A stretch of DNA of 64,000 nucleotides from an uncultured Candidatus Peregrinibacteria bacterium (GTDB taxonomy: Bacteria; Patescibacteriota; Gracilibacteria; Peribacterales; Peribacteraceae), in the NCBI GenBank assembly GCA_903825315.1, contig CAIKAD010000005.1, positions 1 to 64,000 of the forward strand. Direction: 5' to 3'. The position numbers and the translations under genes are program-made. The notes beneath the pieces are model-generated. The model saw only the letters and a list, made by a program, of their open reading frames with translations, ran no database searches and was not told where the DNA came from. Below are positions 1,575 to 2,732 of this stretch, piece after piece (within the stretch, counting starts at the first letter, position 1; every line of letters begins with the position of its first letter).

Positions 1575-1700
1575 ATTCTCCACCACCCTACTCCGTAGGA
1601 AAGTCCCAAATTCCAAGTACCAAGTACCAACACAGATACATGCATTGGTGCTTGAGCCTTGATGCTTGGTGCTTCGATACGAAGCACGGTGGTGGAGAAT
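1575..1700. repeat. Hairpin insertion in 23S domain III, same family as 2611-2732
   Basis: A perfect 13-bp terminal stem (ATTCTCCACCACC at 1575-1587 with its complement at 1688-1700) encloses a mini-hairpin CCTACTCCGTAGG, a word-repeat section (CCAAGTACCAAGTACCAA) and a second mini-hairpin (GTGCTTCGATACGAAGCAC). E. coli has nothing comparable at this point, roughly helices 58-59. Ends and inner order match the insertion at 2611-2732, so the two are copies of one element. Confidence 0.85.
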
Positions 1701-2610
1701 AGAGGTCGGACAAACTCTCAACTGACACCCTTGATCGATTCCCGTGAGGTGCAGGAATATTGACCTGCTGTCCATCGGCTACGCCTTTCGGCCTGACCTT
1801 AGGACCGACTAACCCCACGCCGATTGCCGTTGCGTGGGAAACCTTGGGGATTCGGCGGGCAGGGTTTTCACCTGCCTAGTAGTTACTCATGCCAACATTC
1901 TCGCTTCCGTACGCTCCACAGCACCTCACAGTACTGCTTCGCAGCTGTACGGAACGCTCCTCTACTACGACCTGATGCCCGAAGGCATCAGGACATTCAC
2001 CGCTTCGGTGTACCGTTTAGCCCCGTTGAATATTCGGCGCATCGATGCGTCGACCAGTGAGCTGTTACGCTTTCTTTAAAGGATGGCTGCTTCTAAGCCA
2101 ACCTCCTGGTTGTCGAAGCACTGACACTTCCTTTACCACTTAACGGTACTTTGGGACCTTAGCGAATGATGAGGGTTCTTTCCCTTTCGACGATGGCAGT
2201 TCGCTGTCACCGTCTCACTCCCGTCGCCTTTGACGGTAGGTATTCGGAGTTTGTCAGGATTTGGCAGGTCGAGGAGACCCCCGCATCCAAACAGTCGCTC
2301 TACCCCCTACCATGCACGACGAGGCTGCCCCTAAAGGCATTTCGAGGAGAACCAGCTATCTCCGGGTTCGGTAAGCTTTTCACTCCCATCCACAAGTCAT
2401 CCCAACGTCTTGCGATACGTTATGGTGCGGGCCTCCAGCCGCCTTTCGGCGACCTTCACCCTGCTCATGGATAGCTCACCCGGTTTCGGGTCTTGTCCCT
2501 GCGACGACGCCCTATTTGGACTCGCTTTCGCTCCGGCTCCGGCTGAATCTGCCTTAGCCAAGCCACAGGGAACAAAGTCGTTGGCTCATTATGCAAAAGG
2601 AACACTGTGA

Positions 2611-2732
2611 CCCCTACCACCCTACTTCGTAGGGAAATCCCAAATCCCAAGCACCAACGACCAAAGACGATTCGTTTTGGTCATTGGGATTTTGGTAATT
2701 GGAAAATTCCGTGCGAAGCACGGTGGTAGGGG
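2611..2732. repeat. Hairpin insertion in 23S helix 25 (IVS-like), same family as 1575-1700
   Basis: An 11-bp terminal stem (CCCCTACCACC at 2611-2621 with its complement at 2722-2732) encloses mini-hairpin CCTACTTCGTAGG, an inverted word repeat (CAAATCCCAAGCACCAA against TTTTGGTCATTGGGATTTT) and mini-hairpin CCGTGCGAAGCACGG. It replaces the tip of helix 25, the classic position of intervening sequences that RNase III removes in Salmonella and other bacteria. Fragmented 23S rRNA is therefore a possible outcome (inference). Confidence 0.85.

Follow-up and report, generated by a model that had tools for sequence, protein, structure and literature searches.

Two related 23S rRNA hairpins as probable gene-less members of a mobile-element kind marked by IVP genes

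The window, i.e. the whole stretch of 64,000 nucleotides analysed here, opens on a 23S rRNA gene that carries two long and related hairpin inserts. We think it probable that both are non-autonomous, gene-less members of a kind of mobile element in which an IVP/S23 gene lies between inverted arrays, each element repeating a 7-9-nt word of its own. Beyond this genome, we lean towards the view that PF05635 genes (IVP/S23, "four helix bundle"), found across bacteria and in some archaea, are the mark of one very widespread kind of mobile element that has no recognised transposase. At its ends it would have inverted arrays whose 7-9-nt word is passed on together with the protein and may be read by it, and its gene-less offspring would account for many 23S intervening sequences (IVS), for gene-less hairpins in spacers and for the inverted arrays of heptamers in cyanobacteria and Xanthomonas.

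Two related hairpins in one 23S rRNA gene

Features of the window are collected in Table 1. When aligned with each other, the two inserts share a first stretch of 49 nt at 86% identity (1582-1630 and 2616-2664; BLAST E 5e-10) and a second one of 21 nt, also at 86% (1673-1693 and 2707-2727). Both stretches are offset by exactly 1034, so that the cores, which run from ACCACC to GGTGGT, are 112 nt long in both inserts. The common ends reported in an earlier note on this DNA are therefore confirmed, and its mini-hairpins, CCTAC(TCC)GTAGG / CCCTAC(TTC)GTAGGG on one side and GTGC..GCAC on the other, are present in the sequence. Folding gives a single long hairpin for each insert (-68.4 and -68.8 kcal/mol for inserts 1 and 2, z -9.7 and -9.3, with none of 200 shuffles equally stable). 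The fold of insert 1 consists of five pairs and a two-base loop that recur, which is consistent with heptamer words, and the 3' arms of both inserts (in RNA sense) are made of TTGGNNN heptamers, the best period being 7 for both.

Inserts were placed by alignment to E. coli rrlB and Rfam. Insert 2 takes the place of the tip of helix 25, a known IVS site and the one that had been named earlier. Insert 1 takes the place of a tip hairpin of domain III, outside helices 9, 25 and 45; its E. coli position is approximate because the region is variable. Helix 45 was rejected as its site; in the window gene, this helix ends in a short hairpin without any insert. We see no target-site duplication at the two inserts, whose flanks, CCCCT/AGGGG and TCTCC/GGAGA, are the inverted strands of a helix rather than direct repeats. 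The first 4000 bases of the window gave no IVP match, and the window inserts are without the gene of a complete element. Group I intron identity was ruled out for the inserts, as a permissive scan of 1500-2800 gives none and a similar scan of 400-1100 detects a separate intron of the same gene. A match to a microRNA model across insert 2 was dismissed as chance, a long-hairpin artefact: it scores 32.6 bits where the gathering score is 107.

A palindrome matching GCGCCGAARGCGCTWTACGTGG has three copies in the genome, all in one orientation: one at window 1005-1026, within the group I intron, and two at G000:C4:468-489 and C4:46635-46656. Part of it recurs near window 3379-3393. The 16S rRNA gene (L123:19574-20000 and L124:1-1053; G000:C5:103574-105053) is on the same contig, about 100 kb from the 23S gene and on the opposite strand, so that the rRNA genes are unlinked.

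Table 1. Features of the window, with position, strand and basis of each call.
Feature	Position	Strand	Basis
23S rRNA gene, 3' end missing at contig start (gene runs 3303-1)	1..3303	-	Rfam RF02541, 1861.9 bits
Group I intron of the same 23S gene, E. coli 1951/1952	445..1035	-	RF00028 at 606-882, 49.8 bits (gathering score 50), E 1.3e-11
Word-array-like hairpin (GTATGTGG / CCAAATTCC words) within the group I intron	495..570	-	weak fold, z -2.1
Insert 1 core, 112 nt, domain III of 23S (E. coli ~1415-1440)	1582..1693	-	stem reaches 1575-1700
Mini-hairpin CCTAC-TCC-GTAGG, insert 1	1587..1599		sequence
Mini-hairpin GTGCTTCG..CGAAGCAC, insert 1	1669..1687		sequence
Insert 2 core, 112 nt, helix 25 tip (E. 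coli ~536-554)	2616..2727	-	stem reaches 2611-2732
Mini-hairpin CCCTAC-TTC-GTAGGG, insert 2	2620..2634		sequence
Mini-hairpin CCGTGC-GAA-GCACGG, insert 2	2709..2723		sequence
Intergenic inverted word array, no gene	25866..26019		word-cluster scan, genome matches, base-shuffle test
Intergenic inverted word array, no gene	27688..27815		word-cluster scan
Intergenic inverted word array, GAAACCGA words	29966..30097		word-cluster scan
Intergenic inverted word array, CCAAATCCC / CATTGGCC words	39764..39876		word-cluster scan, sister-species comparison
Intergenic inverted word array, CAATGATCAA words	41011..41100		word-cluster scan, base-shuffle test
Intergenic inverted word array, GATGCAGAG words	42125..42267		word-cluster scan, base-shuffle test, sister-species comparison
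Intergenic region with inverted word array, GGAAAATTG words	43072..43222		base-shuffle test, sister-species comparison

Inserts vary among relatives and are copied within genes

A DNA search detected a 23S gene in 55 of the 74 genomes of the family, window genome included. The set analysed comprised 55 stretches from 54 other genomes (two from G047; several genes are incomplete) plus the window gene, i.e. 56 rows, and an insert was defined as at least 40 nt beyond the short form of its site. We found 97 inserts, in 39 of the 56 rows, at eight sites: near helix 9 (15/54 rows), near 280 (6/53), helix 25 (23/54), near 652 (3/54), helix 45 (16/51), domain III (25/47), near helix 63 (5/47) and near 2210 (4/37), the helix names of the relatives' sites following the E. 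coli position and being approximate. In G014, of the same genus as the window genome, helix 25 has a plain tip and domain III a short hairpin, both long hairpins being absent. This, together with the varying site counts, shows that the inserts are not fixed. The earlier note had held that mobility would be unsupported if relatives showed no such variation; presence and absence do differ, and in several genomes one element occupies two or three sites.

Pairs of inserts from different sites were compared by local score. Scores of at least 50 were reached by 16 of 113 pairs within a genome, against 31 of 3731 between genomes, and scores of at least 80 by 12 of 113 against 8 of 3731. The alignments place one insert, about 210 nt long, at three sites of L110 and another at three sites of L112; L099 has two different elements with two copies each, and in-gene pairs also occur in L109, L117, L105 and the window gene. 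In L100, the inserts of helix 45 and domain III have in common only the inner word array, about 75 nt long, their outer stems being unrelated, which is not easily explained by gene conversion between like stems. The idea of a mobile hairpin that targets rRNA stem tips can thus be kept in one respect: copying of the hairpin between tips is well supported. The tips are however no special target, since many spacers contain word-array hairpins of this kind too. Taken as a whole, the earlier interpretation holds in part, and the link to PF05635 genes was not in it.

Inverted word arrays bracket PF05635 genes

PF05635 (23S_rRNA_IVP) genes are present in 64 of the 74 family genomes. The window genome (G000) has seven matches, six of them above the family cut-off, and all seven loci lie, as judged by eye, amid short word repeats, with a word that differs from locus to locus. 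To our knowledge, no function is established for IVP/S23; we know of no recombinase or nuclease among these proteins, nor are they a known transposase. The fold of the family has been solved (2GSC).

Arms were scored as the best inverted match between the 260 nt on either side of the gene. Compared with 2000 random positions, 65 of the 66 IVP loci of the family exceeded the 95th percentile, and 62 the 99th (L010, with a short flank, was left out of the family tests). The wider scan took the best 80 of 585 relatives in GTDB species genomes, which belong to many phyla and include two Methanophagales archaea. Once L186 and L245 were left out, 78 usable loci remained, one of them archaeal; tested against mismatched pairs, 68 were above the 95th percentile and 49 above the 99th, so that 10 and 29, respectively, were not. 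A preliminary test of matched versus mismatched loci, with cheap gaps, had put only 5 of 26 loci above the 95th percentile, its control being inflated by orthologous loci; the stricter scoring against random positions took its place.

Among reading frames, such arms are specific to IVP genes: in the sampled part of the window genome, a score of at least 30 was found at 5 of the 7 IVP genes and at none of 327 other reading frames (highest score, 27). These frames, like those behind the intergenic test below, come from a mechanical non-overlapping list and not from annotation. Transcription terminators were rejected as an explanation, since the arrays flank IVP genes on both sides and none of the 327 frames scores 30. 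Among 23 cyanobacterial plasmid records with a match, inverted arms were present at all eight loci opened (scores 29-63, with no separate control; e.g. GGTGACAGGTGACAGG), some of which lie between cas6 and cas4, between cas10 and a Cmr3-family gene, or between two ribonucleotide reductase genes. In a Xanthomonas bin, the IVP gene of locus L237 is likewise bracketed by inverted arrays.

By eye, the IVP elements of L237, L183, L182 and L222 sit between apparent operon partners (carA/carB, guaB/guaA, pheS/pheT), as expected of insertions. L248, from a Candidatus Peregrinibacteria bin, and L021, from G032 of the window's family, have identical word arms, a sign that the window too may come from that group.

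Words are inherited with the IVP protein

For pairs of loci from different genomes and with unrelated far flanks, the share with like words rises with protein identity: it is about 0.3% where identity is below 40% and 9% where it is 60-70% (far-flank cut 30; L155, L172 and L213 left out for a stop or for being short). Mantel r was 0.155, and none of 500 permutations was as high. Like-word pairs matched in the same sense in 93 cases and in the other in 2; this bias is inflated, as the upstream arms are rich in G and poor in C (G>C in 60 of 66 and 54 of 58), a make-up that favours same-sense matches. Shared words may also come in part from this composition or from common ancestry. Within the family alone, 13 of the 43 pairs with at least 60% identity have common words (r 0.32, 0 of 999 permutations as high); here the flank filter was laxer, and some pairs counted as non-orthologous have far-flank scores of 40-58 and are possibly orthologous. 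The period of the arrays is mostly 7, but also 8 or 9, and equals that of the nearest protein neighbour at 73 of 118 loci, even where the words differ (expected proportion 0.45; 2 of 2000 permutations as high). These 118 loci remain after removal of outside-family loci that had a stop, a period that was unclear or a flank score under 26. Word and IVP protein are thus co-inherited, a pattern which suggests that the protein may recognise its own words.

Counts of G.U versus A.C were 376 versus 202 in the 23S inserts, 137 versus 123 in the IVP arms of the family and 110 versus 166 in those of the wider set. The G.U excess is confined to 23S inserts, and outside rRNA the arms therefore look like DNA ends rather than RNA helices. 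Selection at the RNA level on IVP arms was rejected, given the lack of G.U excess over A.C.

A complete element and a gene-less twin in 23S helices

A bridge between 23S inserts and IVP elements is provided by L111 (G024), whose helix 45 insert (437-933) is a complete element: inverted heptamer arrays, AACAATT upstream and GAGTTAA downstream (inverted score 35), surround a PF05635 gene in rRNA sense, whose match of 69.8 bits exceeds the cut-off. In a search with 66 IVP proteins, this was the only one of the 56 rows with an IVP gene in its 23S. Both arms recur, with 32 of 36 and 30 of 35 bases matching, in L100 (G072, of a different genus), where they make up a helix 25 insert whose 112 nt leave no room for an IVP gene; the helix 9 insert of L100 scores equally high.

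More generally, 42 of the 97 inserts share words with an IVP arm at a score of at least 28, and none of 97 does when shuffled. Such sharing was found for 17 of 175 pairs from the same genome and for 88 of 6227 other pairs. For insert 2 of the window, the best match among the 66 IVP loci is L035 of its own genome (score 30), and spacer hairpins reach 46 and 43. For insert 1, it is L034, also of the same genome, with a weak score of 27 (next, 23); its best spacer in the sampled third of the genome scores 26, near background, and a spacer hairpin outside this third, C1:22781, matches it at E 5e-4. L035 is below the Pfam cut-off (29.2 versus 33.8 bits) and L034 slightly above (35.8). Membership of the element kind is thus better supported for insert 2 than for insert 1.

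Word arrays in the spacers of the window genome

The words of the inserts had been said to occur also in intergenic spacers, and this was borne out by a local score of 43 between array 39764-39876 and the helix 25 insert. A search of the genome for the shared termini turned out differently: ACCACCCTACTYCGTAGG, which joins the end and its mini-hairpin, occurs only at the two inserts, one more match with 3 mismatches being at the level of the backward control. In this genome, the ACCACC end and its mini-hairpin form a scaffold that these two copies alone possess, and the inner word array is the recurring part.

In the sampled third of the genome, six of the seven IVP arms of the window genome match spacer regions at a score of at least 28, with a median of 45 against 27 for arms from other genomes (p 0.002). 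Regions matching an own arm made up 16 of 28 word-rich and 5 of 95 word-poor regions of the sampled part. Among arms from other genomes, 28 of 59 also reach 28 against these spacers; many words are therefore shared widely and not specific to a genome.

At the lowest cut, the word-cluster scan gave 97 clusters where shuffles gave 65-83, and with at least 5 diagonals 3 against 0-3. Its list therefore serves only as a guide. In the base-shuffle test, for which bases were shuffled since an order-2 shuffle reproduces the words, 33 of 199 intergenic regions had z of at least 3 and none had -3 or less. Array 42125-42267 has about 22 other matching places in the genome, among the matches listed, and by eye its site is empty in sister species G012. 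At the site of 39764-39876, G012 has a hairpin with different words, and G013 and G014 have none (by eye). The 43072 array is kept with similar words in G012, again by eye, and is vertically inherited.

Discussion

We propose that a word-array hairpin entered one 23S helix tip in this lineage and that a copy of it then reached another tip within this gene. Both inserts would have kept their ends, mini-hairpins and one arm, the other arm having drifted or been swapped for other words. Each would lengthen its helix tip as a long RNA hairpin, most likely cut by RNase III, and the resulting 23S rRNA would be fragmented yet working, which would be why the cell tolerates the insert. An RNase III gene is present in the window genome, and excision of the inserts from rRNA by this enzyme is probable. 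From the sequence comparisons we infer that the elements move at the DNA level and that IVP acts on its words, IVP being a candidate for the mover.

A different account dispenses with mobile elements: the hairpins would be ordinary intervening sequences that arise in place through replication slippage and quasi-palindrome correction and spread between 23S tips through gene conversion. Word arrays are tandem repeats, and as such prone to slippage; several in-gene copies (L110, L112) have outer stems in common too, an outcome expected of conversion, one spacer array keeps its place from one species to another, and many words are common to several genomes. However, local mutation fits poorly with copies that share nothing but the inner array, as in L100, with the same words at unlinked loci and around IVP genes, and with a complete IVP element whose gene-less twin lies in another helix and in another genus. 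Nor would it leave an array site empty in G012, or make IVP arrays at unrelated places share words in proportion to protein identity. We regard it as unlikely. Copying through RNA, in which the hairpin RNA would be reverse transcribed and re-inserted with the help of an Avd-like IVP protein, is more doubtful still. It would suit the relation of IVP to Avd of diversity-generating retroelements (a bAvd match just under the cut-off; accessible part of PMC10053308) and the common sense of 23S inserts and IVP genes (32 versus 0 at a score of at least 40). Yet reverse transcriptase (RVT_1) searches returned no match in the window genome, which is 99.6% complete, or in three congeners, with matches in 27 of the 74 family genomes, and the IVP arms, unlike the 23S inserts, are without the G.U excess given above. 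A route through reverse transcriptase or a diversity-generating retroelement was rejected for the window genome on the former ground.

The hairpins are small and intergenic, as would also befit REP/REPIN-type hairpins moved in trans by a Y1 transposase (RAYT or IS200/IS605), and Y1 transposases occur in 53 of the 74 family genomes. REP/REPIN elements have a fixed hairpin with a conserved flanking tetranucleotide, whereas the ends described here are locus-specific words. The window genome, 99.6% complete as stated, has no Y1 match, on which this route was rejected; there it is largely refuted, unless the enzyme was recently lost, and we give it very little credit.

If elements marked by IVP genes do unite the IVP family, rRNA intervening sequences and bacterial heptamer arrays in one kind, the protein would gain a role and a testable ligand, its own words. 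Fragmentation of rRNA would be a by-product of the traffic of elements, which would also be the source of many anonymous hairpins in spacers. The presence of IVP genes beside unrelated systems, e.g. between cas genes, could be explained too, in that they may simply have landed there; 23S rRNA IVP is listed in a figure legend of a survey of CRISPR association (PMC10910872, accessible part).

The window inserts resemble the 23S IVS of Coxiella, Leptospira and Salmonella in the helix 25 site, in the extended stem-loop that stands for a tetraloop and in their sporadic distribution. According to the accessible text of PMC4990558, the usual IVS sites are helices 9, 25 and 45, and the Coxiella IVS, which RNase III excises, has an S23p ORF preceded by heptameric direct repeats of variable number. 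L111 belongs to this type, with an S23/IVP gene in helix 45 and heptamer arrays on both sides of it. Unlike IVS of this type, the window inserts have no room for an ORF, and domain III is not a usual site; the same text gives no account of spacer copies or of copying within one gene, both found here. Intergenic arrays of G-rich heptamers, often in convergent inverted pairs, are described in Xanthomonas and Nostoc (70 in Xcc, 75 in Xac; PMC4692102). The accessible part of that paper names no gene family and does not use the word "intervening", whereas here the arrays bracket IVP genes, as in the Xanthomonas bin L237 and on cyanobacterial plasmids. Among open PMC papers, the scope of our search (subscription papers lay outside it), none was found that describes inverted word arrays around IVP genes or joins IVS, IVP genes and heptamer arrays. 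Like MITEs and REPINs, the gene-less elements are short repeated hairpins without coding content that would be moved in trans, but they show no visible target-site duplication, their ends are arrays of variable words, and no transposase was identified. MITEs are recognised by an autonomous relative with a transposase; relatives bearing IVP exist here, and IVP is not known as a transposase.

In the 23S genes of CPR bacteria, short insertions without ORF, some at known IVS sites, were left unclassified, and some rRNA insertions carry IVP or GIY-YIG ORFs (PMC11270868). This survey sorts insertions by intron type and ORF, and its main text, as far as accessible, is without the words "repeat", "inverted" and "hairpin" and makes no link to spacer elements. 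Other inserts of helix 25 were seen in our set. Those of L096, L098 and L102, about 290-300 nt long, hold a GIY-YIG domain protein (PF01541) within a short inverted stem. L074 and L081 have inserts of about 300 nt with a common GGGTGTCACACT / AGTGTGGCATCC stem, unrelated interiors and short open frames (81 and 73 aa). Five genomes (L067, L083, L095, L104 and L118) carry alike small inserts with, by eye, a stem like CCCTGTAGTATAG / CTATACTACAGGG.
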